The translations under genes and the position numbers were made by a program. A model generated the notes under the pieces. That model made no database searches. It was not told the origin of the DNA and saw nothing but the letters and a program-made list of their open reading frames with translations. DNA of 64,000 nucleotides from Haliotis asinina. Lineage: Eukaryota > Mollusca > Gastropoda > Lepetellida > Haliotidae. The DNA lies in assembly GCF_037392515.1 (NCBI RefSeq), contig NC_090287.1:7485501-7549500 (forward strand), read 5' to 3'. Position 1 is the stretch's first letter. Each line of letters starts with the position of its first letter. This document shows positions 1 to 28,753 of the stretch, in pieces.

Positions 1-1440
1 ATGCTGGACCTGAAGGATTCTGAAGCAGATGGAACAGAGGTAGCTGGGAAGATGCCGGGCGTGTCAGCTGAAGTTACATCAGCAGTGAACACTACACCCA
101 AAACTCCCACAAAACCTCAGCGCAGGAAGCGACCATCTAGCAGTACCAGTCCTAATAGTACCTTGTCATCGGAATCTCTCATTCAACCAGAGTTTGCTTT
201 TGATGTCAAGTCACCTGTTAAGATGGAAAATGTTGCACTTGAGGACATCATAGTGCCATCAGCTGTCAAAAGTGTTGCGAGCGCCCCAACAGCCTGGGAT
301 GATAGAGAGGAAGTAACAGAAGAGGAAATTGTACCAGAGACTGCAAAGAGGGAGATTCATATTGGTAGTGACAATATTCAGTTTTCTCCAAAGGACATAG
401 AGGTTTCTAGTCCACAAAGACCACCATCTCCTCTAGATGACCTTGAGACATTCAGTCTGAGCATGAGAACAGCTCGAGCAAAGCCTCCTGAAGGAGATCC
501 TGTGGTTGAAGATTTTATAGAGGCTGTTGTAGCTAAAAGAGATTCTTCTGCTCCTCCACCAAGAATTATTTATGATGAAATTGTGGCTGCAGAGTCATCA
601 GCAAATTTTTCAGCTCCCAACTTGGATGTGTCTGTGGAAAAGAAGAAAAAAGATAATCAAAAGAAACCTCCAGAGCTGGATGAGGAAATGTTGGAACAAA
701 TCATTTCCATGAATGCCCAGCCTCCAGGTACATCAGCTCTCAACTGGAGGAATGATAATGACATTCAGACTTTTGAAATTCCTGAAAAGGATCGCCCTAC
801 CTCTCCCAAGGGAATAGCATATGAAATAAGAGATGATATTATGACTGGTTTGCCCAGGGCTGTTGATCTAAATAAAAGCAATATAGCCAGAACTATGTCC
901 TATGATCTGAAACTTTCTGATAAGAGAGATGATAAGGGATCCATGCTCAGGGATGATCAAAACAGTACCTCAAGTGAAAGAATAGAATCACTGGATTGGT
1001 CTGGTAAGAGACTTGTGCGTTCTGGCTCATTTACCGACATTCCTCAAAATGCGTCTGCAAGTGACTGGACAGAACAGAACTTGTCTAGTGAAGGATACAT
1101 TAGGATCAAATCTGATGTCTTGGATTCAGATTCAGATTCAGACAAGGTGATAAAGAAAACCACAGATACCTTTACACCTCGCGAGAATCTGACCAATTTG
1201 TCACACATGTCAGATGCCCTGTCACCTCTGACCATCAGAAGTGCTTCTTCACCAGAAACAGCCAATGGACAGAGTCTTCAGTTTACTTCCACAGAACGAA
1301 CAGTGTCAAAGAACAACAACATTGATGGTCTGCCATCTTTGGAGAAAACATATGGAAGTAGCATATCATCTGACAAGAAGGGGAGTTACAGCATTAAACT
1401 GTCCATGGAGGGGAACGAAGATGAGGATGTGGAGTGCTAG
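1..1440 (+). CDS. C-terminal exon of an unidentified acidic, Ser/Pro-rich protein (5' end outside window)
   Basis: The frame is open from base 1 to a TAG at 1438-1440, 479 codons with no intron. An ATG lies at base 1, but because the frame is already open at the window edge this is probably the tail of a longer protein rather than a complete one. I do not recognise the family. The sequence has no signal peptide, membrane segment or folded domain that I can see. It looks disordered: many Ser, Thr, Pro, Asp and Glu, with Ser-Pro/Thr-Pro pairs (around residues 71, 128, 139 and 266), basic Arg-Arg-Lys-Arg near residue 41, Lys-rich patches, and an Asp-Ser repeat (DSDSDSDK) around residue 374. Repeated SP/TP and acidic clusters suggest a phosphorylated scaffold or adaptor tail; this is inference. 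Codon use and composition differ clearly from the AT-rich DNA that follows. Confidence 0.8.
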   Translation: MLDLKDSEADGTEVAGKMPGVSAEVTSAVNTTPKTPTKPQRRKRPSSSTSPNSTLSSESLIQPEFAFDVKSPVKMENVALEDIIVPSAVKSVASAPTAWDDREEVTEEEIVPETAKREIHIGSDNIQFSPKDIEVSSPQRPPSPLDDLETFSLSMRTARAKPPEGDPVVEDFIEAVVAKRDSSAPPPRIIYDEIVAAESSANFSAPNLDVSVEKKKKDNQKKPPELDEEMLEQIISMNAQPPGTSALNWRNDNDIQTFEIPEKDRPTSPKGIAYEIRDDIMTGLPRAVDLNKSNIARTMSYDLKLSDKRDDKGSMLRDDQNSTSSERIESLDWSGKRLVRSGSFTDIPQNASASDWTEQNLSSEGYIRIKSDVLDSDSDSDKVIKKTTDTFTPRENLTNLSHMSDALSPLTIRSASSPETANGQSLQFTSTERTVSKNNNIDGLPSLEKTYGSSISSDKKGSYSIKLSMEGNEDEDVEC

Positions 1441-8945: not shown

Positions 8946-10054
8946 CGGGTTTAAGTGCTGCTGTGAAAAGCATTCCAGTTATGTGACAGCATGTCAGTTC
9001 AATGTTGGTAGAGAGCCCGAAGTAATAAAGGTATTAGATGTTTACCACTAGCGAAACTCTTGAGGCCTGGAATGGTTAGGACAAAACGAGAAACATATTC
9101 AAGACAATCCAGTCATCAGAAACTGTGAAGCTGGGAGCTCAACTCTGCAGTGACTTCCCCAACCATCCCACCCACTTGTGGAGGCTGGTGTCCCTAATCA
9201 CTAACACAATGTATAGCCAAATAGATATCATCAGAATCTTTATATCATTCCCCTGTAATAATGCTGTTAGTTGTGGACGGAAGTATTCGTGTAAATGTCA
9301 GTGCATCTAAATATGAAGATTTATTGGTGCTACACAGTCTCAAAAGTGTCGCAAAGAAATAATCATATACAAAACAAGAACATCATTGTTCAATGCACAA
9401 CCAAGCGAAGATATGAAGGTGAAAGCTTCATAGCAGAGTAAATGAGTACCCTACATCTGTGGGTAGCAAACTGTGACATTGTATAGGAGCATGCCATGTG
9501 ATTGAGAAATGTACAGTGACCTGACTACTATGAAACTGGACTGGAGTTCACCTCCCTTTAACACAATGAAAAACAAAGTCACCTATTCTGAACCACCACA
9601 GGTCTAAACAGGTGAACTGAAAGTTCATCAGGGGTAATTTCTGAGCCATTTTTCCATAATTCTGTTTAATTCCATAAAACTTGAGCACAACTTATTAACA
9701 TAATTAACTGATTAACCTATTACAAGAATAATTTTAGTAATAAAATGTTCACAACCAGCCAGTGAACGTACATACAGATTCAGGAACTCAGCATTTTAAC
9801 CACAGTAACAAGACCTTCAAATGAAACATGAAATTCAATGCTCTTGAAACCATCTACCATTTTCTTCAGGGCTTTGATAAGTCTTTTGAATATTCAAGTA
9901 TTTTCAAAATTAATATAAAAGTGCAGTGAATATTTACATAATTTAATGCATTTTCAAGAACAACATTGTACAAAAGTATTCATCAAAACAGGCAATAGGA
10001 TTCAGACCCATGCATTATGAGCTTTGGTTCAAGGAGAGATCCGTTGGAGGTCAG

Positions 10055-10245
10055 TTACGAGTGATACACTTTGATAATGTTGTTGATATCTTTGCGACAG
10101 ATTGGACATCCATCCTTACGGTTGTGGAGCATCTTGGAGCACTCATAGCATGTGACCATGTGGTGGCAGGGCTGCAGCAGACAGTTGCGCAGACGGTCCA
10201 TGCAGATGGCACAGTCGCGGTCCATGGCCTCACTGGACGCCATCG
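10055..10245 (-). CDS. Rossmann-RING gene, exon 8 (RING finger and stop)
   Basis: The acceptor CTTCCCCAG comes before CGATGGCG and is entered in phase 1. It encodes a full C3HC4 RING with spacing C-x2-C-x11-C-x-H-x3-C-x2-C-x10-C-x2-C, ending IIKVYHS and a stop at 10057-10055. Ending the protein about a dozen residues after the last Cys with an aromatic residue in the tail is typical of IAP, MUL1 and LRSAM1 RINGs. Confidence 0.9.
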
Positions 10246-13200
10246 CTGGGGAAGGAAAAATTAGCCCTTGAAATGAGGACTGGTTCTTAACATCCACTCA
10301 TCAGCACTGGTTGAAAAAGAAGTCTAAGTAATTCTTATATGACCCTGATCTCATCACAAATAACTCAAAACACTCCAAAATCTGTTAACACATACAGTGA
10401 TCTGCACTGTAAAGTATAACAGTAAGTGGCTTCCATTAATTCAAAATGGCGTAGCTCTACACAACAGTTTGAGCAGGTGGGCCACCATTAACAACTGATT
10501 GAACTAAAGGATCACCCATAGTATGTCCTGGGAAAGTTATGGATGCATGCTTAGATGTTGGTAGGTATTATTGAAAGCATTTTCCAAATCCTTCCCTCAA
10601 AAGTGTTACTTTTAAATCAAATTTGGCATATCTAGTAACATTGATGAAGAGGCAGCAGATGATTTCTCTGACCATCAGGCACTGAGTGGGTCAATATGTG
10701 AGCACCTTTTCACACCAATGTGTGTTACTGCGAGGGTTTGTCCATCATATGTGTATTTCTGTCTCAGTATTACCATCATCATCATGAACGCGTGGCGTGA
10801 CGTTTCCTCGATGCGACAAGGCTGGGATTGTGTTCTCCTTTGACTGCAGACTCTGAATCTGCTCCAGGCGAGCTGCAAGCAATACATCAGTATGAAAACA
10901 TATATTCTTCAGTGTATCCCCTCTACTAGATCTGTATAGGTTAATAGGAGAGAAACATTCACTGAGTCATTATAAAACATGTACACATGGTGCTTCATTT
11001 CATTCTTAAAAACTTACATAGAAATTTTCTCATCATTAAATATTGAGATTTGGTAAGACATCCCAGAGTGAGTGAGTATGGTATATGCTACTTTTAGCAA
11101 GATGCCTGTCATGTCTTGGTAGGGTACATCACAAACTGAGGTTGCTGATACTTTGAAGAGAATAGTCCTTGGGGTACTTTAAAATGTCCCTTAAAAATTC
11201 CTGTGGCAGTTGTAACTTTATTTTGAATAAAATATTCACAAAACAAAAAACTCCACAGCCAAGAGAAAGTAAGTCTAAGCTTCAGTCATGTAACATGTTT
11301 TCTATGCTGATCATGATCAGACATAAGGTGGGGTAGTGGGTGGCACTACTCCAAGGAGAACTCTCTTAAAAAATCAGCAGCCTCTGCAGGTTGGTTCAAT
11401 TCTGTTTCAGAAGAGGTCCTCCATGGGGTACTTTCAAGCATAGGACAGACTCCAGAGTGGCATTCTGTTTGGAAAAATTAATCCTAATTCAAGACTGATG
11501 CTCCACTTGATTAAGATTGTACCCAGTCACGTGATCTATGCTGATTAGTGATTAGTCAGGATCAGGGGTCGAACAATTGCTGAGCTAATAAGTTCTGCAA
11601 GCCAATGGCTCGAATGCACCTTTGATGTCTGGAAGAGCACTTTGCCAGGACATTGACAAAGCCCAGAAAAATTATTAGCCTTGCTAAATGTTTCTGAGGA
11701 CACTGAACAAGAGTAGACTCCATTGTACAAGTGAAAAGCAGGATAAATCACTCCAACCAAAACGCTCTCAGCATGAGGCAGGTAACAATAAAAACCACCA
11801 TCACCAAGTGCTGATTAACACAGACTCCCAAATACTGAAGTCTAGGGAAGAGGGGAAAGCTGTTAGTGTACAAAAATCCCCAGAATAGTGAAAAGCATAG
11901 CCGAACATGTGTTGGCTCACTATTACACTTACCTGATCATGTGACATGCGGTTCGAAGAGAGGCATTCCTAACAGTGACCATTGGGATTTGTACCTAGTT
12001 CCATCATAAGACGGGTTAACATCTTATGACTGGTTCAAGTATTCAAAGCCTGCCCTGCCCTCTTTTGCCTCTAGGTGAAGAGGATGTAAGGGAAGTGGGT
12101 ACAGCTAAATCCAACACAACCCAGAAGGGTGGTAAGGCTTACATTGAACACAGAACCGATACCAATGACTAGTTACCTGCTTGGTCAGGGTGGCATGACA
12201 CTCTCCACACACTCTCAATTCCAGCACACTGATATGCAAGTTGTGACTTCATTGTCCAGAGACCACAGGTTGCCAAGACCTCCCAACTCGGGAGGGATGT
12301 ATCTGTTTGGACTGAGTGAAGGCATCTTCAGTGGGAGCCCCTTAGAGACATCTGTCCATCACTGGAGATGAGGTATCAACCACTCTGGCATCTAGAGAAA
12401 CTTCTTATAGTTCTTTGAGTGTGACCCCAGGACCCCAGGAGGACCCCTTTGCAGGAGAATACAATAAACCCCTGCAGTCAGCAACATAACATTTTCCAGT
12501 CCCTAGCCAGCTGAGAGTCACCAATGAAGAGTTCTACCAGCACCCTCTGTAGAGCACAGAGATGCACTGAGAGGAGCATACAAAACTGAACTGTTAAGGG
12601 GAAAGTACTGCCGACTGAAGGTAGAATGTGTGGCTGTGTCCCAGATGCCTTGAGAAAGCTGGCTTCCCCCAGGAGGCGAGTCAAGCCGAGACCTGAGCTA
12701 TAAGCATCAAGGATTTGCATCATACCAGGCCATAAGCACCAGCTAGATGACGTCACAAATACTAACATGTAATGAGATGTAATTGTAATAATGTGATGAT
12801 CCTGAATCTAAGGCGTAGGAACATTCAAAGATAAAACGAACATAGAGAAAAGAGAAAGTAGGCCACCTTGTCTATAATCTTGCAAACACATGGTTTGAAG
12901 TGACAAGGCGACGGAAAATTTACAACATTTATGAAGGAAAATTACATGAAACGCGATCCATACAACATCCATGTGAATAGGCCAAAAAACCCCACACATA
13001 CATTATTCATTTCTTTCTCACTCATCTTTGTCTTTGTTTACTAGGAATTCAACTTAATAATGTTACAGGATGTCAAGCACGTCTTCACCGCTGGAATGAC
13101 AGCATGGAAAGAGAGTTACGAGGATGAAGCTTAGAGTTACTTTCTCTTGGCTGTGGGGTCCTGCTGGGCCCTGCAAGGGTGGTCCAACGAGATATTTTAT

Positions 13201-16200
13201 TAAAAATATTCAAAGGGTTACAACCGTTATAGGAAGTCTTAATGGACATAAAAATGCTTATAAGTACCTCAAAGAGGACCTCTTCTGAAAAAGAATGACC
13301 TTCAGTGTTGAACAAGTATATTGTTTGCAACACAGTTTGCTAAAAAAACCATCTTGGAAATAACTTTTCTAAGCATTAAACAAACACTGTTTCAGTCCTA
13401 ATGGCAGAAGGTTTAAAAGCATAAGTATTGGCTCACCCTGCTTTCGTTTGTCTCTCTCTTCCTCGGACAGGATTAAGGGGAATCCTCCAGACCGGAAAAA
13501 CAATGTCTTGCCCATCCTCTCCAGCATGATGCGCACTGTGGATGAGATGGAAACATATATACTTACACTGTCTTACAAACATCACTGTATGATACTTACC
13601 TTCACATTCTATGTATCTATACACAGGCCACTCCAAAAGTTGATGTGAAAATAATTAAGCACTGCAATCTGATCGGTTGAAAAATGTTGTTTTAGCAGGA
13701 TTAGAATTTAGGAATCTACAATTTGACCTCCACTCACGGGTCAGTTGCAAGACAGACTTGGGACAAACAAGGGAGATAACTCTGTGAGGCATGGCCATGT
13801 TGTACTGTGGTTTGTCCACTATTCTCATAGAGTGATATCAGCTAAATACAAGTAACTGTTCAACAGTAACACAATCTGTGTTTCGATGCAGTGATGACAA
13901 ATGGATGCTGAGAGAGAACTTTGCATACATATTTGTTGATTAACACTGAACCCACTGCATCCCATCTGTATTGTGGCAACCCGTGAAGGTCCCAGGGTAG
14001 AATAGGCCTTCAGCAACCCATGCTTGCCATAAAAAGTGACTATGCTTGTCGTAAGAGGCGACTAACGGGATCGGGTGGTCAGACTAGCTGACTTGGTTGA
14101 CACGTCATCGGTTCCCAATTACGCAGATCGATGCTCATGTTGTTGATCACTGGATTGTCTGGTCCAGACTTGATTATTTACAGACCGTCGCCATATAGCT
14201 GGAATATTGCTAAGTGCGACGTAAAACTAAACTCGCTCGCTCGCTGTATTGTGGCCTGTCCAGGACCTTAACAAACAAGTGACTGACATCATAAGCAATG
14301 GTTTACACAACTGGGATATAATGACATCCATCAAACAAGTCAATCAATAAGTCTGACCATTAAATTCACTCAGAGCACAAGCTTGTCAAGAACAGGACTG
14401 GGCAACTCAAATCTAATCAGAAATTTGCATGGTATGAAACAGCATCCACAACCATTATGTATTTACCAGATAGGATGACTCTTTATCTGTGTTATGGTGA
14501 ATGAAGGGATTAATGTCAATGCCAGCAAACAACCCATCCACTGAATACACGCCCATCGGTATTCCATGTAAGAGCGAGATCTCCTAAAGTCTTCCAGATC
14601 AGCAAGGCTCTTGTTAGTGTTTGTAAATACTGTAGTATACTGGACAAAATAATTTAGGGATATCAGTATTTTTATGACTGATATTTCATCAGATTGTAAA
14701 TGAATAAATAGATCATTATTCATATTTTCAAAATTACATATATCCCTAACTATTTTTGTCCAGTACATGCTATATGCAATTTGACCACAACACAGGGCAA
14801 GTAACCAGAACCAATAGAAGCAAGTGTTACATCCACTAGGTATTGTCAGGTGTGTACTTCATAAAAGCAGAGACCAGTAATTGCCAGAAGTTGCTTATTT
14901 CCTTGGTAACTTTGGTTCTCTGCTCTGTTGGCCCCCATGGATGACCTGGATACCTATAAGGGAATCCTCCAGGACGGAAAATGAGGGCTGGTAGCAGGAG
15001 CTCACTTTCTTGATGTGTTTCAATAGTCTTTGACTGGAACTACATGGTAACTCTTGAGGTAAGGCAAGACTGAGACCAGCTTAACAATAGACAGTATGTA
15101 CTCCTCATTGTTTTCAGGAAGCTTTAGAAAGAGATGATCAAAAGGAGATCTTAGTTCTTTTAGGACATCCTGCCTAGGCTAAGATCATGACTTTTTGTAA
15201 AGATATTAAAGCCTTACTAACGAAAAAAAAGATTGAAAGATATTAAAGTATTTGGAGCCTGTCAAGCAATTCCTCCAAACAAACCGCTTTCCCTGCCCAC
15301 ACATTTGCCAAAAGTACTCATATATATTAAGTGTCCTACCACAAATGCTGACAGGATTGGGAAAAGCAACAGCAGTCTGATCCCATGATCCCAGCAGATT
15401 TCAAAGCTAAGGTCAGATTATCTGCTTCCATGGATGAGCTGGCTTGTCATCTCATGTGTCTGAGTGTGATGGTGCTACAACTGGCAGGTTACATTAGAAA
15501 AGGCCACTGGACAGTGGTTTTGTTGACTTCTGTCATTCAAGCACATAGTTCTCCACAAAGAATGTGAAAAATCCTGTGGGACAACGTTTATCCTGCAGTC
15601 ATTCCTACCCTAGGAAGCATGTACTCCCGGGTACCATCAACTACTTCCCCTTGCATACATCCCACTATCATCTTCATAGTCCTTGCAGACAATCCTAGCT
15701 GTCAATTGTCTAAGGAATACATATAACAATTGCCTCAAGACATCCACAATCCAGCTTTTCATGAAGCAACCTTTACTAAATCTAATCTTAACTCCCACTC
15801 TTTAACACTGCACTAAGGTTATATTAGAGATTTAAGATCGCCTTACTGCTTTGTGAGAGGAGGCCCTGGTCATAAAACGATTTAACACAAACCCTTCTAA
15901 AACCCAGGTACTGACCATCTTCAGCTTTAAAAGCCAATAACAGCAGCAAAGGAAATGGTCTACATGTCTTTAGGACAGTGGTCTATGAGGATCAGGATTA
16001 AACTGAAAACTCCTATGTCTTGATGATCGATATCTTTGTTTACTAGGAATTCTACTTGAAATGTTACAGGACATAGGGCACGTCTTCAGCATGGGAATGA
16101 CAGCATGGAAAAAGAGTTACGAGGATGAAGCTTAGAGTTACTTTCTCCTGGCTGCTGGGCCTGCAGGGGTGGTCAACAAGATTTTTGTAAACATACTCAA

Positions 16201-19200
16201 AGGATTACAATTGTTGTTGTAGGATTAAACTGAAAACGCCAATGTCTGTATGAAGGTAGAGAGCCTGTGGAGCCAGGAGGCCAGCATCCACATAGGCTTC
16301 AAAGATATTCTTGGTCAGTACGCTTGATTAAATGTAAATGTAAGAAACAGGACACAAGAAGAGACTCTCAGTAAGTTGTGGAGAAGAATGGGAGACAAGG
16401 GTGCAATATGTACATCTTTCACCTTTGCTTGGAATTTGCACATCAGTCATAATTGAGCATCAACATTTTGAGCTTGAACAAAGCATCTAGAACATGAATA
16501 TCACTAACTTTAGCTGCAGTTGCCACAGCAATGTAGGACGATAAGGTTAGGCCTCTGTTGGTTACTGTAGAGGGTGACTCAGATGGTGTAAGATCCATTG
16601 AGATGAAGCGTGGCCTCCAGACAAAAGTTTATCCAGTAAAATGCCAACCTCAGCAGTCTTGGAAAGCTTCTTCACAGAAGACACCACCAAAATAGTATCA
16701 ACAGCTGACCAGTGGGGTGAACATGCAGGTGTTCGCCCTGTTCCAGTGTCTGGAGACCAGGAGACCGACAGAAACACTGGCTGAACAATGTGGTGATGTT
16801 ATGATTGCCATGGCTCTGTGAGCCAATGTGATGGATCTGATGAACATGGGCCACAAATGTTTGAACAGTATCAACAGCTTATTGGTAAGCCAGGCTTACA
16901 CAACACCCAACTTTCTTATGCAGCTTCCAGTCTGTGGTTAACTGTTAACTGTTAACTAATGGAGACATTAGGACAGCCATATGCCAGGAAGCTAGTTACT
17001 CCTGGGAAGTTTGAGATGCAAGAGAATCAACCAGCTGGTTGAACTGAAATGTGAATAGCTGTGGTGAGTACAAATGAGTGTTGATATTTTGTAATGTATG
17101 ATTAAATTTTGGTGCCAATGGCTGATTCTCAGAATCAATGCATAGTGTTTGTTGTTTGGTATCCTACGCCTGTCACTCTAAATTCTGTTTGTTGCCTGCT
17201 AAAAAGCGCTACATGAGTTTTGGAAAGTACATATTTGATGTTACAGATAAATTTTAATAAAATCTAAATATTTCAGATATTAAAATACTTACCTTACCAT
17301 ATGGCTTATGCATATTACCTCAAGCATCGCTTAAAAGAGATCCGACAGTTGTTGATACACCATTCTACCGAATGGCTACCTCATGTATCAACGATTGTAT
17401 AGGAACATGCGTGAACAATCCAAACAGTTCACTTTTACTGAAAACAAATAAGTCCAAAGAAGGCAAGAGTGGGGAGGAAAACATCCAACGTTGGGTGGGC
17501 ATAACCTCCCTACGGTAAGGTAAGTATTTAAATATCTAAAATATTTAGATTTTAATAATTTTTTAACTTACCTTACCATAGGGCTTATGCATATAAATTC
17601 GACAGACAGGATGGTGGTTTCAGGCTTCGGAAGGCCAACCTAATAGGAACCAAACGAGTCTGAAGAAAATCAAGACCGAGGAAACTAGCTGAAGCTTGGA
17701 GAAACTGGTAACTAGAACAAGAGACTGACAGTAATCCTCAGTCAAGTCAAATTCCGAAAGAAATCAGCAAATAAACAAATTTCACCAAAAATATCCACTT
17801 CCTTTAAAACCAAGGTAAGAAACCATAATTACCTAATAGGTGGAAGGTTGGGTGAGTTGTTGGGCCTCCACCAACGGGCCGAAAGATTGAAAACCCTCCA
17901 CATCTGCAACTGCTAAATCCCGAAAATAGTGGCTTGCAAACACCGTGGAGGAACACCAAAAACATCCCTCCATAATTGATGGTACAGAGCAATTTCTGTG
18001 CAGAGCCATGGTGGATGCTAAGGCATGAATCTCATGCGGGTTGTTGGCTGATGGGTGCGGTAAGTGTTTCACATCGCAGACTGCCAAAAAAGTCGCCCGT
18101 AACCATAAAGCCACAGTATTTCTGGACACCTCTCCTTTCATCGATGAGGAAAACAGGATGAAAAGTCTTTTATGAGACCATCTTCTCAATGCTGACTTGG
18201 AGATGTATAATTTCAATACCCTCACTGGACAAGGGCATAAGGAGGGCCATGGAGATGGTCTAAAACAACATTCAAATCCCTGGCAACAGGACGAAACCTC
18301 ACCTTCTGACCCTCCAACTTAAATGCCTTCAACATGGCAAGGAGTTCCGGCACCTTGGACACCTGCCAGTCACACTTGACTGTTAAGACGGAATTAAGAG
18401 CCGATAAGTACGTCACAATGGTACTGCCTCAAAGATGTTTGGACCTTCTCAAGTAGAGAAAAATTTCTGCCAGAAACTGAGGAGATACTGTTAAAGGATT
18501 CTGATTTCTGAGTGTACAAAACTTCTCAAAAGATGTCCACTTGTTATCATAAAGAGATCTAGTAGATAACTGGTGCGCGCCGCCCGAGTAGAGTAGCCCT
18601 TACCTCTGAAGGCTTTCTGCAGATGTTCCAAACATGTAGAAGAAACCTAGCCAGATCAGGATGCGGATGATAACTGTGCAGATGACATAGTAGCTGCGGC
18701 CAATCTGGTAGCGGTAGCGGGTCCCAGTCAGCGAGATGGTGCAAGTCGGGGAACACATTCTGGCCGGCCACGAGGACGCGACCAAAAGCAGATGAATCAG
18801 CCGGGTCTGCTTGATCTTGGCCACCACCCCTGGTAGAAGAACTGGTGGGGGAATGCATGCTTGTCCAGCCCTTCCCACGACATGGACATGGCGTCGATCG
18901 TCCAGGCCTGTGGATCCCATATGGGAGATGCGTACAAGGGAAGCTGACTGTTGAGACTTGAGTGACTGGTGTTGTTGACACAACAGACGAAAAGCCTCCA
19001 CGTGCAGCGTCCACTCTGTTGGCGATGGTCTGCCTGGTCTGGGGAGGGCGTTTGCCAGTACATTCCTGCAACCTGGGATATGGCGAACTTAAACTCGAAT
19101 GTTGCCGTCGTCGAGAATGTTGGCCAGCTGAAACATCTGGTCCAACAGCTGCTGGGATATTGTATTGCCTTGATTTTGAAACGCCCAGACGACCGTGGAG

Positions 19201-22200
19201 TTGTCAGACGCTATGAGAAGGTACATGTTCCGCAAAATCGACATTCAATGCTTAACAGTGAGAATCACCGCTTGAAACTCCAGACTGTTGATGTGCCACC
19301 TGCGTTTGGCGTCGGACCATAGCCCCGAGACCGTCTGACCGTTGAGGTGAGCATCCCAACCTTGAATGGAGGCGTCGACAAAAAGTGGTCATGATACAAG
19401 TCTGTCAAGGAGACGCTGACGCAAACGTTTGACTCTCAAGTCCACCATCAAAGATACTGGTGAAGATGGTCCGGTAGAGGGAACCTGACACGCAGATTGT
19501 CGGCCTGCATGTGAGGGACTAGAAAGTGCTACAACGGTCGAAGCATCAGATCCTCAGCGGATGTGAGAAGGCCTAGCAGGGACTGCCACTCCCTGAGGGT
19601 CATTGGCTGACAAAGTTATCTTTTCCCGGTGGGATTCTGCTGGTGGGATTCTGACAAGGTTGGAGTGTGTAAGGAATAGGCCTCTGATGAAAGTCAACTC
19701 CTGGGATGGTTCCATTTTGGATTTCTCACTGCTTACAATCCACCCCAGTTGCTCGAAGAGACAAGTGGCAAACGGCAACTGTTTGCGTAGCCAATGAGGA
19801 TTGAGATGATTTAGGAGACAGTCGTCTATGTATGGGTCGAAATCCACATTCCGGAAATGGAGAAACTGGGTGATAGGCGTTGTGATACGGGTGAATAGCC
19901 ATGGGGCCGTAGAAATGCCAAACAGGGGTACCTTCCATTGGTAGTGATGGTTGTTGAATACAAAGCGCAGGAACTTCCTGAGTGGCCGGTAAATTGGAAC
20001 GTGTAGATAGGCGTCCTGTAGGTCTAAACTGGCTGGCCAAGACCTGGGGCCGAGCTTGGCATGAAGTTGTCCCAAGGAGACCCTGTGGAAGTGCAGCGGG
20101 TCCTGAAGGTACAGCCTGTTGAATGTTGCCATGTTGTGAATCATTCGCATTTTCCCAGAAACCTTCTTGGGCACGAGGAAGATGGGTGAGTAGAACCCCG
20201 GGGACTGCTGGGGCTCTCACACTGTCTCTAGAGCATGAGTGTCTAATAGGGTCTGAATGCTGTCGTGTAAGAGCACACTTTGGACTGGAGAGTATACGCG
20301 TGACTGTGGCATTGTTGTCAGAGGCAGCGACACAGTAATGGGAAGCTTGTAACTGGTCCGAAGTATGTTGGTGATGACATTCAGTAGAATGGCGTATCAA
20401 TGACTGTCTGATCTAAGTGATGCTTGAGGCAATATGCATAAGCCCTATGGTAAGGTAAGTTAAAAATTTGAATTTATACATTATTACTAGCACTTTGAAA
20501 GCTGAGAGATTCTGACTTACATCAACATTCCAGTGAAGAAGTACAGTGCCGAAGAACTGGAGAAGGGTTGACAAGAGGTGTCAGTCAAGGAGGATGAACC
20601 AGCATGTATTCCCCATGTAAACAACACCGCAGAGATGAGCAAAAGACATTCTGCATTCTGGATCACTCATTCATACACCCACCACTCCATATATACATCA
20701 GTCCAAAAATCTCCACCCCCCTATCCTAATGGTCCATCAGCCAAGAGATTCTCCATTACCCTAATGGTCCATCAGCCAAGAGATTCTCCACCAATACCCT
20801 AATGGTGAATCAGCCAAGAGATTCTCCACCCACCACCCTTATGGTCCATCAGCCATGAGATTCTCCACCCATCACCCTAATGGTCCATCAGCCAAGAGAT
20901 TCTCCACCCATCACCCTAATGGTCCATCAGCCAAGAGATTCTCCACCCACCACCCTAATGGTCCATCAGCCAAGAGATTCTCCACCCACTACTGTACTGC
21001 TCCATAAGTTAGGGGTAAAACAGGGTATGCTCTTACTACCATACACTACGTATTGCAGTACAAGGCCTTCAGTCTGGTATGTTTCAGTCCACTATACGAC
21101 CATAATGCAGAAAAGCAAAGAAATGGACAGCTTTTGACAAAATGATTCCATTTCTAGACATTATATTTTCGAAAAGGCTTAAAAGGTAAAAAAATGATGG
21201 TATGAAAACTAAAAGTACCAATTTTCTTTGTCTGCATTAAGATCATGGTATACTAAATGTAAAATAGCAAGGCACACTGTTTCACCCCTACCTTCAGTCC
21301 ACATATTCCCAACAAACCCCTCTACCAACCTCAGACCTACCTTTCTCTATTGTTTCTGGCGAGGTATGTTTGCCAGCAGTGATCTCCACTTCAGGGATAT
21401 AGTATACGGGAAACAGGAAGCGAAGCCCTATAGTCCTCTGAGAAACAGTATAACAGTGAGTTATATTCTGTTCCAATACACTTGGAAAATTCTTTGATAA
21501 TACAATTAAATTATTATTTCACAGAATATACATGTATTAGTGTTACAGCACCACTCAGGACAAAGTTCAGATTTACTTGACTTGGGTTGAGACTCAAAAT
21601 GGGCATGTCATTGCCATGTCAATCCTTTCTGTTTGAGTTCCACTCTCAGGTTTGTGATGCCATACTTACTATCAATACAGTCTACTTTGTGTTATCATAA
21701 AATGTAGTTCATTACTTCCATGGATCCATTACAACTTGGATGCTGTGGATCAGTAACAACATGACTGGAACCAGAATAAAAAAACATGTTGTATCACACA
21801 CACAGTGGAAATTCTCTAAACCAGCATTCATTGGGATTGGCAAACAATGCCGGTATAGAGGGAGTGCTGGTTTAGAGAACGTTTCCTTTTTCAACCTGAG
21901 AATGATCCTCAGTGTGCAATAAATACGACTGAACGACATATCATTACCCTTTTTGAGTAGGCTGAGAGACTGCAGCAATATCTTTCATTAGCAGAAATTT
22001 CTGTTCAAGAGTTAATTCCAATCTAGCTCACTTGACAGATCTAGCCATCTTGACATGGTGAATGCTTGACAAATTGTGACATGACAACAGATCTATAATA
22101 CAAGTGACATGTGTCATTTATCAATTTTCATAATCCTTCTCCATACTCCTTTTATCGGGTAACATCAATGAGCATAATGCTGATGTAATCACAACAGGAG

Positions 22201-25200
22201 AGCCGAGATATCAAATGCTGGTTTAGAGAGTGTTAATTACTGTGCAAACAGTGAGTTGGGCCGTCTTTGTTGTGCCGAATTACAGAATAGACTGATGCCG
22301 GATTAGAGGGCATGTAAATGATCATAAATTGACTAGCTTCTGCCGGGACCAATTCTAGTGCAGATATTGAGAGCATGTCTGATTGGAGTGCTGCTGGTTT
22401 ACAGGGCTTCCACTGTATAGTATGATTATAACGCAACAAATTCACCGGTACCTCCTTGTTAACAGTCCTCTCTGAGATGTCTGTGACATTGAGGCAGAGT
22501 GTGTTGGTGGAGATGATGGCACCAGGCTTACAAAGATGTGATATACCTGTAACCATGGCAACAGATTAATCATCAGGTTGAACCAAACAGAACACAGAAC
22601 ATAAATAGCACACAGGTGTATTTGCACATAACATGGGATTAATCCTACAGAATGTTTAATCTGTGGATTAAGTTAACTCACGTTCAAATAGATCCTGCTT
22701 AATATTCAGGTTTTCCTTCACAACCTCAAAGATAACTTCTGCATCACTGACGGTCTCCTCCAGCCGACTCATGCACAATATCTGGCCCTGGAACACATCA
22801 AGGACCTCCAGTAAGATATGTAATATTTTATACTTCCCATCTGCACTGTCTTCATATCAAGGAGCGAGTGCTTGTCTGCCTTCAAACGTGCAAGTTATTT
22901 AATGCTGTACACAGTAATATTCCACCTGTATGGAGAAAACCAGTAACTAATCAGCTCTGGATCATACAAACCAGTGATTAATTGCACACACATAGACCCA
23001 CATGCCATCGACCAGTTCACCAAACCTGACATACAAGCCATTAAGTCACCTCACATTAGGAGCTTAAGTTGTTACATGTAGTCTAAATGGGTCATCATGT
23101 TATAACTTAAATGTTGTTAGCCCTCATTGGTTTCACTTGTTATCTTGACCAGATCTACATCCATAAGAGGTCTCCCTCCCTAGTAAAAAAAAAATTCAGG
23201 TTCCTGAAATTGAAAAGCGTGTTTCCACTAAAGAATCAAAGTATTTTTCCACCAATGAATTGGATATAATAGGATACAGTCTGATTAATTCATTAAAATA
23301 ATTAATCAATAAGCTGCAGTATAATCACTGCAATAATTCATGAATAATTAATTCAGTTTCTAAATGTCAACAGTGTTCCATTGATATCATTGTGAATTAT
23401 GAAAGAAAAATGAATTATAAATTTCTTCATAATTTGGAATTATGAATTATGAAATTATGTCAAAATTATACATTTATTATTTTAATCAATCTTATTAAAT
23501 TTAGCTTAAAATAATTCATTGATAAGTCACTAGTTTCCCACTATTCAGTTCTTATTTGCTTTCTTCAACACCGTGTTGAAGCTATGTGACTGAGGTTTGT
23601 CAATATTTCTCATGAAATTACAGTCAAGTTGGTCTGGTTTACATCGCTTCTATCAATATTCCCACAACAAAATGGGACCCATCTCGTGAATCAAACCCAA
23701 GCCTTAGAGGAAACAAATTAATTACTAGGCTTACTAGACTGTCACTTCATCGTTGAAACAATTTACTGAAAAACAAGGATAAGTCGAATGTGTTTACATG
23801 AAGTAGGCGGTTCACAGCAATAAGCAAGCCCATTTGTTTGTGAATGGGAGAGCAGGTTGTGAAAATGCAGTGCATGATGATGACATTGATTCCACACATA
23901 GCTGCACATGCCATGCTCATGAAGTCTACTCTCACGTGGTCAGTGTAGCCACTAGACTTGTGGACAACCTGCTTTCCCTTCGTTCACAATGGCGTGCTCC
24001 AGAGGTCTGCACTGACATATACCAATATGAGTCAATTGTCAGGTCAGTCCTCAACTTATCCTTGTTTGCCAGCAGTTAGACCAGTGCAGTCATGCTTTAT
24101 ACAGACAGAGAAGCCATATTACTGGTAAAGATAGCAGGAGTTGCAAGAACAGGTTTACACCAGGTAAAGTATTAGTGTCTAGGACTGAACCCAACTTTGA
24201 ACAGAATATCAGATATATCACTAGATGATGAAAAATGTCAGAACAGATAAAGGTCTTTGATGAAACCCACAAATACAGGTTCAACAAACCTAGAAACAGT
24301 ATGACAGCAAGTCTGGGATTTGAACTCAGGCTTAAGAAAGGTAATCTCAATCTTTCATAATTCTAAATGAATCATCCACTGAACACTGTTGTACTTTAGA
24401 AACTTAATAAATTTGTAAACAAGCATTGCCCATTTGCCAAAGTATCAGAACAATATCAACATAAAGCAAACATACAAAAAGTTGACGTTTCCTTCATGTC
24501 ATACATTGCAAACAGATAGAAAAGACATATTAATCCTACTAATAATAATGGATAGCATTTATATAGCGCTAATCTTCGAAAGGACTCTTTGCGCATATCT
24601 CTCACAAAAATTGGATGGAAAAGTACACATTAAGGGAAAGCCTGTTAAATTAGAATGTTTTTAAACCAGTCTTGAATGAACTTAGAGAAGGGGAATTGCA
24701 CAGTTCATTTGGAAGAGCACTCAAGACTGAGGGCGCACTGTATTTGAAAGAGGGCTTTCCTGATGACTTTAAGTTGTATTTTGGGACTTTTAACAGTTTC
24801 TCACTGGAAGAATGAAGAGTTCGTGTAGCCTTGTATGTAGAAAGTTCTCTGGACAGATATGGCGGTAATGAACCATCTAAATGGCGAAACACAAGTGTTG
24901 CAATCTTGTATTTGCATCGAAATGCGATAGGCAGCCAATGCAGATGCTGCAGCATGGGAGTTACATGATCATGCTTCCTTCTCTTCATCACGAGACGAGC
25001 TGCACCGTGCTGTATTCGTTTGAGTCGAGCGAGAGGAGACCAAAGAAAACTGAATTGCAAAAGTCCAACCTTGAAGTGATAAAGCAACTTACAAGACTGG
25101 TTGCTGCATCTTCAGTGAGATATGGTCTAATGAAAGCAAGTTGGCGCATCTCAAGGAAGCAAGCACGTGATACACTGGTGATGTGGTTGTGGAGAGTTAG

Positions 25201-28200
25201 TGATTGATCTAGGTGCACTTTTAGATACTTCACACAAGGTTGGAAGGGAATATCGCTCTCCACTACCACAACTGACTCATCTTTAATGAGTTTTAGACGG
25301 TTTGGTGCACCAACTGGCATAAGTTCTGTTTTTTCAGTGTTCAATTTCAGTTTATTACTGAGCATCTATTCCAAAACGTCATCAATGCATGATTGGATGC
25401 CATGTTTGACCACACCGAAGTCCTGTGGAAGATCACTTTTTGACAGTAGAGTGTCATCTGCATATTTCTCAAATTCAGTCATGGGAAGAGATGACCTCTG
25501 AGAGTGGTTGAACATACTGACATTTTAAGCATATTTGGTTAATAAATAGTTAAAATCAGTGCATGAAAAAGCATCTGCCCAGCTGCACACTGCTTGCTAG
25601 ATTCATGGCCGGCTTACTACTATATTTTATAGCTGGTCCTGTGAGCCAATACATTTTCCAACTGTATATATCTGACCATGTCATTGACTACAGGACATAC
25701 TTCGAAAATAGTTTACAATTGTGGTAGCTGGATGATGTCTGTATAGTTCATGATCAGTCAAACAGATCAGCCTACCCATTTATCTAACACTAATTGTGAC
25801 TGGTCTAGAGAATGCTTTAAGCCTATGAATAATGTCATTCTTTTCTGCTTTTCTGATTCAGATGGCACTGACACTTAACGAATCAACAGTGAGCACCCAG
25901 TTATCATTTTATTAAATTTGCTCTTGCACATGTTTATGTTTACCCACAATGAGTAATTCATTAATTACTTTATTTCAATGCCATATCTCAGTTTCCTATT
26001 TTTAATACAGGGCTGGTTACATGCTAACAGGGATGGCAACAGTTTTTAGTCATCAGCCCTGTGGGCTTCCTGACCTTTATAAGGAGTTTCATGCACTGTT
26101 AAAATGTTCTAAAAGGTCACCTGCTACCGATAATAAAGTAATAACCTAGTGAATTACTCATCATGTTAAAGTTAAAACTCACAATAAAATTTTTATGTGG
26201 CATGAGTTTTTCTGAGTGTAGCATCTTCTTGTCTTCTTGCAGTCTCTCATACACACTGTTGAGCGCCTTCACATCAATGTCAGTGATCTTCACTCGATGA
26301 CCATGATATGCCAGTTCTCCTGAACATAGAAATATCAGCACAATCTCAAACAAGAGCCACTTTGACCAATTCATTATTGATATTTTCTTTCTACATTTCC
26401 AAAATATATATCATGATAAATCTGACAGCTATTGCTGTGGTGCTAATCAAGTGATTAATAGCATAGAATTCTAGACACTGGTTTCACTGATCCACCATTA
26501 TGATTCACTAGGCATTGTAATACTCCTTGTAGTCTAGTGGTATAAGTGTTTGGTTGTCATGCTAAAGACCCTGGTTTGATTCCGCACAGGGGTACTTTGT
26601 GTGGGCATGCTGCTTTTAGCAATATTGCAGCAATATCATTCTGAGGGACACCAAAAATGGTACACATTGTACCAGTGTGAGGAATCAAACACGGGTCTTC
26701 GGCATGACAAGCAAACTCTTTAACATTGTTTAAACACTTGGCTACCCCAACAGCCCATGAAGGATTCCTCGGAAAACAGATCTCAGTTACAATAAATGGA
26801 CATGATTTGCATGTTTAGTGCTAAGACCAATATGCCTCTGTAACAAAGGCATTCACTAGTTTTTGATAACATCTGATTTCCCTCTTTAAAAGGTTTGCTT
26901 ACTGATTCCATTACAAGTATATGACACTGGTTATCTCAGTATTGTCATTTGCCTTCCTGGTGACATTTATCAGTTCAACTTCAACATAAACCCATCCACT
27001 TTTCCTGAATTCACATTTAATTAATATTTTTACAGATCCTTGAGGACAAAATGAGAGATCTGTGGAGTAACATTGTAGAACAGTATCTTCTGAAAATTTT
27101 TTGAGAGCTTGGAATGAATCATTGATTATATGAACTGATGTATGAAACAATGCTCATAACTGCTCAGAAAGAAACAACAAAACACTTATCTAAGTCATAG
27201 ATGTGTTGTATGCACCATGAATAATACTGTGCATTCCTCTGGACATAGTGAGTTTTTGTTATGTGTCCTTTCTCTACATTTGTACACACTGGATGCACGT
27301 TTGTGCCTCTTGTAAAAGTTTACTCTGGTCAGTGGATCATAGTGCACTCAGTTTCTATTCTCTTGAGTATAATGTCCAAGCTGCCTCATCAGTGAGTGTG
27401 AATAATATTCTACACCTCTTTTAGCAATGTTCCAGCAATAATATGACAGAGAACACCATTAATGGGCTTCACACATTGTGCCCATGTGGGGAACTGAACC
27501 CTGATCTTCGGTGTGACAAACAAATGCTTTAACCATTAGGCTACCCCACCACTCCTGACTCAGCAGATGCCAGACAATTAGCAATCACATTACTATCTCC
27601 TTTTGATGAGTTACAAATACTGTTTCTGGTTTCTTTTGATTAGAAGGCTAGATAACATTAAATGCTTTGACTGTCTGAAGACAATCTCAAGAGTTTCTTG
27701 TGACAAGTCTAGTACCTTAGCCACATAATCACTTCTTATTGTTTCATTGTTGACAAACATGTTTAACTTTCACTAGGAATGAATTCCACTGTCTTTCCTG
27801 CATGAATGCATTTCACTTCAGGACAGTATTAGTTACAAAAAGAAACAAACAATAATTACAGCAAAATTGGGGAAACCCCTAGAACACATTTAGGGCATAT
27901 TCCATTTTGTGAGCCACTGCACATGAGAAATGCATATCCATACAAATGAAACATTACCCAAGGAATGGGATAAACTGTAATATGTTCCCTTAATTTCTCT
28001 TCATCATCTCTTTCCCCCTGGCTTCATTCATTTTATAAATTTTGTGGATCCACTATCCCTTACTTTTTTATGGCATATTTTCAATTATAATCAATAATTG
28101 TTCACCACAAATTCTCAGACAATGAATAGTGGATTTGGTTTCTGATTCCTGACACTAGTGACTGATTGTAACAGAGGTCATGAGTCCTTGCAAACAAGGC

Positions 28201-28753
28201 TCAGAGTGGTCAGTGTACCCTCTCATACACATCCCAAAATCTAAAGGTGTAACACATTATATGTATCAGGTCTACTTTCACACAACGAAACACACCATAT
28301 CACAATTACATTCTTGGATCATATATTTTGGGCATCATGTTTACTTTCTTGTGCAATAACTGGGTGTGTTGTGTCCCAAAGAGGGAACAGGTCAAAGTGG
28401 CCACACAACAAAATGGCCACAACCCCTAGTCAAAATGGCCATACCATTACCAAAGACACTGCAAGTGTTAATACTTGGATGATGGCTTGTATTTGAGATA
28501 AAGTTACACATTCTAAGTTGGTAAAACATTTTACACTAAATTACAGCTGTTCATGTGATAAGTGTGACAACACATAAAGTTTCTTAAGCATCTAAAACTC
28601 TACCCTTGAGACACAATGCGGTCCAACTGAAACCTATTACACCATGAGAACAAATAGAATAGCATCTCAAGGACTGTGCTAGATCACCAGTATTGTAGAC
28701 CTACCTGCAATTCGTACGCCCATAGCCCCGCATCCAATAACTGCAACCTTCAT
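10055..28753 (-). CDS. Rossmann-RING fusion gene: NAD-binding 3-hydroxyacyl-CoA dehydrogenase-like domain plus C-terminal RING finger (8 exons)
   Basis: Assembled by hand from exons 28753-28705, 26319-26183, 22787-22682, 22546-22452, 21437-21341, 13535-13437, 10872-10774 and 10245-10055. All introns are GT-AG and every phase fits, giving 290 residues. Residues 1-190 resemble the NAD-binding domain of 3-hydroxyacyl-CoA dehydrogenases: MKVAVIGCGAMG (G7, G9, G12), then Asp30 after the second strand, an ISTNTLCLNVTDI strand near 108-120 and RTIGLRFLFPVYYIPEVEI at 130-148. The catalytic His equivalent is Arg135 and the following Asn is Phe138; the catalytic Glu survives as Glu147. Residues about 195-235 are a linker. 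Residues 239-277 form a C3HC4 RING (C239, C242, C254, H256, C260, C263, C274, C277), ending in a hydrophobic VYHS tail as in IAP/MUL1-type RINGs. The helical 3HCDH C-terminal domain is absent. Inferred role: a ubiquitin E3 ligase with a nucleotide-binding, probably inactive, sensor domain. An in-frame ATG at 28768 would add five residues. Confidence 0.87.
10774..10872 (-). CDS. Rossmann-RING gene, exon 7 (linker)
   Basis: The acceptor CTTGCAG comes before CTCGCCTGG and the donor GTAATA follows. It is 99 bases, phase 1 in and out. It encodes RLEQIQSLQSKENTIPALSH and RGNVTPRVHDDDG, a short possible helix followed by a polar, flexible stretch that joins the two domains. It has no match to any domain I know. 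Confidence 0.78.
11066..11150 (-). repeat. SINE 3' tail fragment
   Basis: GAGTGAGTGAGTATG followed by CTACTTTTAGCAAGATGCC, a diverged version of the SINE tail seen at 8774. Confidence 0.5.
12120..12770 (-). mobile_element. Possible heavily decayed retroelement fragment (RNase-H-like)
   Basis: On the - strand near 12.13-12.37 kb the translation shows scattered resemblance to the RNase H region of DIRS-type elements (a TD-x-SL pattern and a later LW/ES pattern). It is old and broken in many places. The call is weak and rests only on these scattered residues. Confidence 0.22.
13031..13234 (+). repeat. Dispersed repeat, copy 1 (pairs with 16033-16226)
   Basis: Shares TTTGTTTACTAGGAATTC, GAATGACAGCATGGAAA and GAGTTACGAGGATGAAGCTT with the second copy 3 kb away in the same orientation. 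I judge the similarity at about 80 percent with small indels. The family is unknown. Confidence 0.8.
13437..13535 (-). CDS. Rossmann-RING gene, exon 6
   Basis: The acceptor CCACAG is followed by TGCGCATC; GTGAGC is the donor. The exon is 99 bases, phase 1 in and phase 1 out, so it can be skipped without changing the frame. It encodes RIMLERMGKTLFFRSGGFPL and ILSEEERDKRK. The LERMGKT start matches the last helix-strand of the NAD domain. An intron of 7.8 kb filled with transposons separates it from exon 5. Confidence 0.86.
13978..14245 (+). repeat. 260-bp abalone-type repeat, near-complete copy
   Basis: Runs from CCCGTGAAGGTCCCAGGGTAG through AAGAGGCGACTAACGGGATC and GTTGATCACTGGATTGTCTG to GGAATATTGCTAAGTGCGAC and ends in CTCGCTCGCTCGC. 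Other copies in the window lie at 31.5, 40.5, 43.2, 44.9, 46.2, 47.15, 48.77 and 49.45 kb. No coding capacity; probably a SINE or another short non-autonomous element. Confidence 0.9.
14638..14765 (+). mobile_element. 128-bp mariner-like MITE, copy 1
   Basis: Terminal inverted repeats of about 27 bases: TACTGGACAAAATAATTTAG at the left and the complement of TTTTTGTCCAGTA at the right. It begins and ends with TA as in Tc1/mariner insertions. A second copy of identical length lies inverted at 37856-37983. Confidence 0.85.
14955..14988. repeat. Short echo of exon 6 inside intron 5
   Basis: AAGGGAATCCTCCAGGACGG here matches exon 6 near 13478-13500 with about two differences over 24 bases. It is flanked on the - strand by TACCAG and GTATCC, which could act as splice sites, but the phase (34 bases) would not fit the reading frame. 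Probably a relic of a local duplication. Confidence 0.35.
16033..16226 (+). repeat. Dispersed repeat, copy 2
   Basis: Same orientation as 13031-13234, with the same internal landmarks and a different 3' flank. Confidence 0.8.
16230..17250. other. Intron 5 stretch without recognisable gene
   Basis: A few open stretches on both strands (for example about 16.56-16.85 kb on -) have no start, splice context or family resemblance. It may be eroded transposon sequence. Confidence 0.3.
17259..17553 (+). mobile_element. 295-bp miniature element with DIRS-like ends
   Basis: About 43 bases at each end are inverted copies of each other, each containing TACTTACCTTACC. Just inside the left end lies GGCTTATGCATATTACCTCA, which matches the inverted right end of the neighbouring DIRS-type element. 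It contains no genes. It looks like an internally deleted relative of that element in the opposite orientation. Confidence 0.7.
17560..20466 (-). mobile_element. Fossil DIRS-type (tyrosine recombinase) retroelement
   Basis: About 2.9 kb bounded by 35-base inverted repeats (17560-17594 and 20432-20466) that contain AACTTACCTTACCATAGGGC. On the - strand I see, in order, a reverse transcriptase region (about 20.2-19.55 kb, with the YIDD motif), an RNase H region (about 19.1-18.8 kb) and the C-terminal part of a tyrosine recombinase (about 18.2-17.83 kb, with PHEIHALAS and the final active-site neighbourhood). No capsid-type gene is visible. The element is broken in several places and looks like a shortened, inactive copy; the well-matched ends suggest a moderate rather than ancient age. 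Inserted in intron 5 of the Rossmann-RING gene, same strand. Confidence 0.85.
20711..20992 (+). repeat. 39-bp minisatellite, about 7 units
   Basis: Units of the form CCCTAATGGTCCATCAGCCA followed by AGAGATTCTCCACC. Most are nearly identical, with scattered single-base changes. It lies in intron 5, about 350 bases upstream of exon 5 in + coordinates, and is likely length-polymorphic. Confidence 0.95.
21341..21437 (-). CDS. Rossmann-RING gene, exon 5 (former catalytic segment)
   Basis: The acceptor CTCAG comes before AGGACTATA and the donor GTAGGT follows. The exon enters in phase 0 and leaves in phase 1. It encodes RTIGLRFLFPVYYIPEVEI and TAGKHTSPETIEK. In active family members this segment reads GLHFFNPVPxMxLVEV; here His is Arg135 and Asn is Phe138, while Pro139 and Glu147 are kept. 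Confidence 0.88.
22452..22546 (-). CDS. Rossmann-RING gene, exon 4
   Basis: The acceptor TTACAG comes before GTATATCAC and the donor GTACCG, a weaker site, follows GAG. It encodes CKPGAIISTNTLCLNVTDIS, the family strand usually reading SNTSSL. Only 135 bases separate it from exon 3. Reading past the weak donor gives about 75 further in-frame codons, so intron retention would yield a truncated form. Confidence 0.87.
22682..22787 (-). CDS. Rossmann-RING gene, exon 3
   Basis: The acceptor TTCCAG comes before GGCCAGATA and the donor GTGAGT comes after GAAC. The exon enters in phase 0 and leaves in phase 1. It encodes SRLEETVSDAEVIFEVVKEN and then LNIKQDLFE, matching the family pattern in which a DA-D/E-x-(V/I)IE motif is followed by a helix with KxxLF. 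Confidence 0.88.
23160..23530. other. Very AT-rich intron 2 stretch
   Basis: Repeated AATTCATAATT/AATTATGAATT words. No gene or clear transposon is seen. Confidence 0.6.
24530..25515 (-). mobile_element. 3' end of a LINE (non-LTR retrotransposon), degraded
   Basis: On the - strand the reverse transcriptase core appears as KYADDTLLS near 25.45 kb, followed by MLSNKLKLNTEKTELM, a CVKYLKVHLDQSL segment (usually YLG), then LKRIQHGAARLV and HLHWLPIAFR, the typical C-terminus of CR1/L2/Rex-type LINEs. The 3' end finishes in TTTCGAAGATTAGCGCTATA and a short ATT-rich tail near 24.54 kb. A TAG replaces the usual Trp just before MLSNK, and the frame shifts near 25.04 kb, so it is dead. The 5' part is missing, as is normal for LINEs. 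It lies in intron 2. Confidence 0.88.
26183..26319 (-). CDS. Rossmann-RING gene, exon 2
   Basis: The acceptor TTCAG precedes GAGAACTGG and the donor GTGAGT follows ATT. The exon enters in phase 1 and leaves in phase 0. It encodes residues 17-62, including the helix after the glycine loop and KITDIDVKAL. Asp30 is the residue that in the family contacts the adenosine ribose and favours NAD over NADP. Confidence 0.87.
26530..26755. repeat. Two SINE pieces head to head
   Basis: The left half reads GTCTAGTGGTATAAGTG with a B-box-like GGTTTGATTCC and then the SINE body (CTTTTAGCAATATTGCAGC) on +. The right half is another head on -: AATCAAACACGGGTCTTCGG is the complement of a B-box region. An inverted pair like this could fold in the pre-mRNA of the Rossmann-RING gene. 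Confidence 0.65.
27385..27560 (-). repeat. tRNA-derived SINE, near-complete copy
   Basis: Tail GTGAGTGTG, body CTTTTAGCAATGTTCCAGC and GGGCTTCACACATTG, then GGGAACTGAACCCTG (complement of the B box) and a head ending GGCTACCCCACC. Intron 1 of the Rossmann-RING gene. Confidence 0.75.
27895..28065 (+). repeat. Old dispersed repeat, copy 2
   Basis: Collinear with 5225-5435, same orientation; see that entry. Confidence 0.5.
28705..28753 (-). CDS. Rossmann-RING gene, exon 1 (first strand and GxGxxG)
   Basis: Encodes MKVAVIGCGAMGVRIA plus one base. The donor GTAGGT follows, leaving phase 1. An in-frame TGA lies at 28780-28778, just upstream of an alternative ATG at 28768. The ATG at 28753 has A at -3 and places the first beta strand at the N-terminus, as usual in this family, so I prefer it. 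No mitochondrial or peroxisomal targeting sequence precedes it, so the product is probably cytosolic. Confidence 0.85.

Follow-up and report, generated by a model that had tools for sequence, protein, structure and literature searches.

What could a protein do that carries, on one chain, the NAD domain of a metabolic dehydrogenase and a RING finger? This question is raised by a gene of the abalone Haliotis asinina, located at positions 28753..10055 on the minus strand of a 64,000-nucleotide stretch of contig NC_090287.1 (assembly GCF_037392515.1, positions 7,485,501 to 7,549,500; the whole stretch is called the window below). An initial annotation, made from the letters alone, had described it as a fusion of a hydroxyacyl-CoA dehydrogenase-type NAD domain with a RING. 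It missed two points: the apparently great age of the fusion, which occurs in ten phyla, and the very probable inactivity of the dehydrogenase. We propose that the gene encodes an ancient animal dimeric RING E3 ubiquitin ligase in which a pseudo-dehydrogenase would bind NAD(H), with occupancy changing substrate binding or dimerisation so that ligase output would follow the NAD(H) state. We give this reading a probability of roughly 0.55.

The fusion gene is real and it is one gene. Rebuilt by script from the minus strand, the reading joins eight exons, over a span of 18.7 kb, into 290 codons and a stop; all seven introns are of the GT...AG type and the cumulative phases are 1, 0, 1, 0, 1, 1 and 1, exactly as initially described. 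The closest named match in a protein search is a Haliotis rufescens protein, with 93% identity over 100% of the query and no gap. From exon 1 to exon 8, the identity to this separately annotated protein is 15/16, 42/46, 34/35, 27/32, 29/32, 31/33, 32/33 and 61/63. The junctions of the Rossmann-to-RING part (21341/13535, 13437/10872 and 10774/10245) are also read through by homologues of other phyla, and an exon-by-exon comparison with six homologues confined the gaps (1-4 residues) to exons 7 and 8, that is, to the linker region and the RING exon. A search of the same genome gave 17 matches, 7 of which are exons of the RING-fusion gene. The gene is apparently single-copy in the abalone genome, because the remaining 10 matches are weak (E 8.8e-9 to 7.5e-4) and restricted to the RING end (residues 203-290).

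The two domains described in the initial annotation were both recognized, well beyond chance: Pfam 3HCDH_N (PF02737) matches residues 2-172 (E 4.5e-41, profile positions 1-173 of 180) and zf-C3HC4_3 (PF13920) residues 236-283 (E 2e-14, above the cut-off). The list of 20 Pfam families with E up to 1 did not include the 3HCDH C-terminal domain (PF00725). The best 25 of 61 NCBIfam matches are headed by 3-hydroxyacyl-CoA dehydrogenases and their kin, all far under the cut-offs (best 105.5 bits versus 508). The Rossmann domain starts in exon 1 (28705..28753; all exons are on the minus strand), which contains the start codon, residues 1-16 and one base of codon 17, with the first strand and turn and the G-C-G-A-M-G motif (residues 7-12). 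It ends in exon 6 (13437..13535), where the family signature MGKTLFFRSG..PLILSEE and the start of the connecting helix are also found. In a structure model of the monomer, this helix (residues 186-207) connects the Rossmann half to a linker, residues 218-231 of which have a predicted local distance difference test score (pLDDT) under 50 and are predicted to be disordered; exon 7 (10774..10872) encodes the end of the helix and most of the disordered linker. A short helix precedes the RING in the model. The best 50 matches of a structural comparison concern mostly model residues 1-185 and include no RING chain; this comparison covered the Rossmann half only and has no bearing against the RING.

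The fusion is not an abalone peculiarity. At least 102 of the 120 homologues listed (121 passed) carry both PF02737 and PF13920, which also supports the one-gene model; the RING mark is missing from 12 and 3HCDH_N from 6. Among the matches listed, the named two-domain members belong to ten phyla: Mollusca, Brachiopoda, Annelida, Nemertea, Platyhelminthes, Rotifera, Arthropoda (sea spider, mites, horseshoe crab, centipede and millipede), Hemichordata, Echinodermata and Cnidaria (corals and Nematostella). The refuting case named in the initial annotation, that no other mollusc has the two domains in one protein, is clearly contradicted by the molluscs of this set. Lineage-specific exon shuffling in abalone is ruled out by the presence of members in ten phyla. 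Furthermore, 36 of the 120 listed homologues, with at least 270 residues and both domains, come from contigs of 0.9-2.4 kb; two of these, P0086 and P0087, seem to be near-copies. These members are best read as spliced transcripts, since the abalone gene spans 18.7 kb, even if some could come from compact genomes; they indirectly point to a single mRNA with both domains.

A tree was built with 39 members (38 named ones and the abalone protein); its bootstrap is not settled and the midpoint root serves for drawing only. Cnidaria (3 members), Arthropoda (6) and deuterostomes (8) each form one side of a branch, with supports of 100/100, 98/96 and 97/61, respectively. Among the inner forks, some look odd or are left open, with rotifers beside the limpet Patella (81/54) and the horseshoe crab beside a mite. 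Taken together with the spread over phyla, the tree suggests that a single fusion probably took place before the cnidarian-bilaterian split and was then inherited vertically. No named vertebrate, insect or nematode appears among the homologues listed (120 of 121, 120 of 180 and 55 of 55), in searches that were word-limited and in which many rows are nameless; in the 180-match search, scoring was limited to the 7,996 candidates sharing most words. This is a hint, not a proof, of loss from these three groups. We also observed that P0121, from the millipede Chamberlinius hualienensis, has a PX domain ahead of 3HCDH_N and RING, which could be a further fusion or merged gene models.

Is the dehydrogenase half still an enzyme? 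In human HADH, the proton is taken up by His158, which Glu170 keeps in place, and the catalytic site is flanked by the NAD and dimerisation domains (PMC10988713). The PDB titles found among our structural matches name HADH mutants at Ser137, Glu110, Glu170 and Asn208. We placed the Ser137 and Glu110 positions on the fusion family by their spacing from His158 and partly by the HADH sequence, and take them to be equivalent. In an alignment of 80 near-full-length members chosen from 120 proteins (A1), the His158 position is Arg in 80/80; in abalone this is Arg135, encoded together with the RFLFPVYYIPEVE signature and Glu147 by exon 5 (21341..21437). The Ser137 position is Leu, Met or Ile in all 80 members (Leu114 in abalone, exon 4, 22452..22546, Rossmann domain). 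The Glu170 position (Glu147) is Glu in 80/80. The Rossmann residues encoded by exon 3 (22682..22787) include Glu83, Glu87, which occupies the Glu110 position and is Glu or Asp in 80/80, and Lys92, which is invariant. The abalone protein has a GxGxxG motif (Gly7, Gly9 and Gly12, kept in 73/76, 74/75 and 73/74 of the A1 sequences) and an acidic residue at the end of strand 2, Asp30, at the NAD-ribose Asp position in the exon 2 part of the Rossmann domain (26183..26319) and kept in 72/80.

The same replacement was found in the unselected set formed by the query and all 120 proteins, where the His158 position is Arg in 114/115; the one other sequence is a fragment that covers the RING only and has no genuine residue at this position. 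Across all 145 proteins, a motif derived from the family matched 136, every one with Arg. As a control, PF02737 was searched in the same genome, giving 21 matches (20 as loci) to ordinary dehydrogenase exons on four contigs; the exons of the RING-fusion gene were absent from these, so that the reach of the search is limited. Fifteen of the 20 loci were translated and the residue was read by eye. The ordinary abalone dehydrogenase exons covering the His position keep His (7/7), and the stretch before it, where visible, reads SNTS, SSTS or SSSS, a Ser occupying the Ser137 position. A cluster of 3HCDH exons at G000:C6:55953577-55975700 looks lambda-crystallin-like by eye. Altogether, dehydrogenase chemistry seems to have been lost early and to have stayed lost, while the cofactor-site residues still seem constrained. 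We consider the dehydrogenase very probably dead because His is replaced by Arg, Ser by Leu, and the C-terminal domain is undetected. A working 3-hydroxyacyl-CoA dehydrogenase, as many records have it, is rejected on these grounds, and since neither the catalytic His nor the C-terminal domain was found we did not file the protein under that name but as a candidate RING E3 of a new build.

The other end of the protein looks like a working RING. Exon 8 (10055..10245) contains the end of the linker, the complete C3HC4 RING (Cys239..Cys277), the tail and the stop codon. In A1, the zinc ligands Cys239, Cys242, Cys254, His256, Cys260, Cys263, Cys274 and Cys277 are each present in 80/80, with C3HC4 spacing. 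The RING pattern was matched in 126/145 proteins, and in all 126 the last zinc Cys is directly followed by an Arg, Arg278 in abalone. Such a linchpin Arg is common, though not universal, in RING E3s. It is described as stabilising the closed state of the complex between the ubiquitin-conjugating enzyme (E2) and ubiquitin, E2~Ub (PMC12326332). The protein ends exactly 13 residues past the last zinc Cys in 120/126 cases and with [RK]x[FY]xx in 103/126, the abalone protein ending with KVYHS. In cIAP1, the donor ubiquitin is held in trans by two residues of the C-terminal tail of one subunit, Arg614 and Phe616 (PMC6349121); Lys286 and Tyr288 of the abalone protein show the same basic-x-aromatic spacing. 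The nearest solved RINGs include Mdm2, MUL1, Mdm4, cIAP1 and cIAP2 by sequence, and MGRN1, the cIAPs and XIAP by profile. The fixed length of the tail, at the very end of the protein across ten phyla, argues that the tail works.

How could the two halves act together? The N-terminal half would be a 3-hydroxyacyl-CoA-dehydrogenase Rossmann domain that has lost catalysis and kept its NAD-binding architecture, joined by a long helix and a flexible linker to the C-terminal RING. The latter, probably dimeric, would bind E2~ubiquitin, with Arg278 holding the closed form, and Lys286 and Tyr288 from the tail of one subunit would press on the donor ubiquitin that its partner subunit holds, an arrangement seen in cIAP1. 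We propose this E3 activity, and the dimeric RING with its tail acting in trans, by analogy with known families. The Rossmann half would most likely bind NAD+ or NADH. Dinucleotide occupancy could then alter substrate binding or RING dimerisation, and ligase output would track the NAD(H) state; this gating of the ligase is speculative. The initial annotation had suggested that the NAD(H) or acyl-CoA state is linked to ubiquitination. From the sequence, the NAD(H) part of this suggestion looks plausible; the acyl-CoA part is not favoured, given that the protein lacks both the substrate residues and the domain needed to complete the substrate site.

Several observations weigh against our proposal. 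The pointers to dinucleotide binding are confined to the motif and the fold, and the predicted disorder of the inter-domain linker (residues 218-231) makes a direct coupling between Rossmann domain and RING not obvious. Ser replaces Asp30 in 8/80 A1 members (P0022, P0028, P0029, P0031, P0032, P0037, P0041 and P0048), which may alter cofactor preference or loosen dinucleotide binding; the five that have names are all bivalves (Mya, Ruditapes, Dreissena, Mercenaria and Mactra), three being nameless, and the replacement looks like one change in one bivalve group. The Arg motif was built around the fusion family and could miss a canonical His, the 114/115 count being less biased. The strict [RK]x[FY]xx tail is absent in 23/126 proteins; in 18 of them the second-last or third-last residue is still Tyr or Phe, which leaves 5 without it. 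Finally, the RING pattern went unmatched in 19/145 proteins. Twelve of these have fewer than 240 residues, P0102 and P0103 break off shortly after the RING begins, the RING of P0111 is garbled, the ends of P0073 and P0075 are different, and the last two, P0144 and P0145, are dehydrogenases of the canonical kind that have 3HCDH_C.

The main rival to NAD(H) sensing is that the pseudo-dehydrogenase serves as a protein-binding platform only, the RING ubiquitinating the substrates so recognised, perhaps 3HCDH-fold enzymes of the canonical kind (such as HADH or EHHADH) or relatives, with any NAD being structural. The loss of the catalytic residues in 80/80 members, together with a fold and a family-specific surface (RFLxPVYxIPEVE, FFRSGxxPLIL) that are nearly invariant, would suit such a platform, and E3s commonly couple a RING to a binding domain. 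However, drift would be expected at the cofactor site of a pure scaffold, whereas the GxGxxG, Asp30 and Glu87/Lys92 positions are strongly conserved, Asp30 less strictly, being Ser in 8/80. We consider this explanation rather unlikely, yet it is the one to be taken most seriously after our own.

One could also assume that the protein has remained an oxidoreductase, which would use Arg135 instead of His on a different substrate, the RING adding self-regulation or targeting. Arg135 and Glu147, both invariant, could then belong to a re-tooled active site whose cofactor site has been kept. But the position of the substrate Ser is hydrophobic in 80/80 and the C-terminal domain that would complete the substrate site is undetected; the HADH catalytic site sits between its two domains (PMC10988713). 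We find this reading improbable. As to the possibility that a dehydrogenase fragment and a RING gene were wrongly joined, by the initial annotation and by annotators alike, the 7.8-kb intron between exons 5 and 6, with its reverse-transcriptase fragment, could raise this suspicion, as could the 18 of 120 listed homologues that carry one domain only. It is countered by the same junctions without gap in H. rufescens, by the listed homologues with both domains, by the 36/120 near full length on short contigs and by exon 6, in which the end of the Rossmann domain and the start of the linker helix lie together. The gap-free H. rufescens match and the spread of both domains rule this artefact out for all practical purposes.

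Returning to the proposed NAD(H)-responsive ligase, a broader view can be put forward tentatively, with less confidence than the mechanism itself: this family might represent an animal-wide class of ligases that read NAD(H) directly by means of a metabolic enzyme, inactivated and joined to a RING, in place since the cnidarian-bilaterian ancestor and overlooked, since standard models (vertebrates, flies and nematodes) seem to be without it. Public collections already hold the sequences and both Pfam marks, mostly under dehydrogenase or generic names. Many members are publicly named 3-hydroxybutyryl-CoA dehydrogenase, lambda-crystallin or AIM1-like despite the Arg at the catalytic His position; judging from their residues, these dehydrogenase names look wrong and deserve correction, as they hide the members of an old, conserved and apparently (in abalone) single-copy family from ligase searches. 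The usual companions of the RING in E3s are protein-binding domains. A former metabolic enzyme, now a pseudo-enzyme, in that position would offer a short and testable path from the NAD(H) state to protein degradation, and the members from sea urchin, Nematostella, oyster and octopus make experiments practical.

A few other features were seen in the window. A possible polyadenylation signal, ATTAAA (9942..9947, minus strand), lies about 110 nt past the stop codon; it was picked by eye and is weak. The intron between exons 5 and 6 contains the reverse-transcriptase fragment (RVT_1, E 4.6e-12; 19554-20174, minus strand) and a 39-bp tandem array of 7.3 copies (20710-20989). In the intron between exons 2 and 3, two overlapping open frames (24650-25365, minus strand) resemble retroelement debris by eye and gave no Pfam match at E 0.01. 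A 479-codon open frame at the left edge of the window (1-1440, plus strand), also with no Pfam match at E 0.01, is perhaps an exon of another gene.

A parallel can be drawn with known systems in which a dehydrogenase-like or NAD-using module steers signalling. CtBP proteins are NADH-sensing pseudo-enzymes or regulators, and Deltex is an NAD-linked E3. What they share with the abalone protein is the idea only, their architectures not being homologous, and a RING with a 3HCDH domain is not known among systems of this type. We found no paper on a RING and 3HCDH protein in the open-licence literature, a scope outside which most subscription papers and all preprints fall; within it, the initial statement that no E3 of this build has been described holds. 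One search there brought up a plant transcriptome, and another 981 papers, of which the 15 listed are all free of the dehydrogenase name. The closest named 3-hydroxyacyl-CoA dehydrogenases are HADH, bacterial Hbd, the NAD domain of EHHADH/MFE1, lambda-crystallin CRYL1 and FHMPC 5-dehydrogenase, with which the Rossmann NAD domain is shared. Unlike them, the abalone protein has Arg for the catalytic His, Leu, Met or Ile in the family for the substrate Ser, and a RING in the place of the undetected 3HCDH_C. On the RING side, the families of cIAP, MDM2/MDM4 and MUL1 carry BIR, p53-binding and membrane domains, respectively, and the Pfam scan of the abalone protein gave none of these, nor any further partner domain known from the dimeric RING families. 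With the dimeric RING E3s cIAP1/cIAP2, MDM2/MDM4 and MUL1, and with MGRN1, the protein has in common a zf-C3HC4_3-type RING at the extreme C-terminus, the linchpin Arg, a short tail with an aromatic residue at a fixed distance and, in the model, a short helix before the RING; it differs from the dimeric RING E3s by having a pseudo-dehydrogenase where they have their own partner domains.

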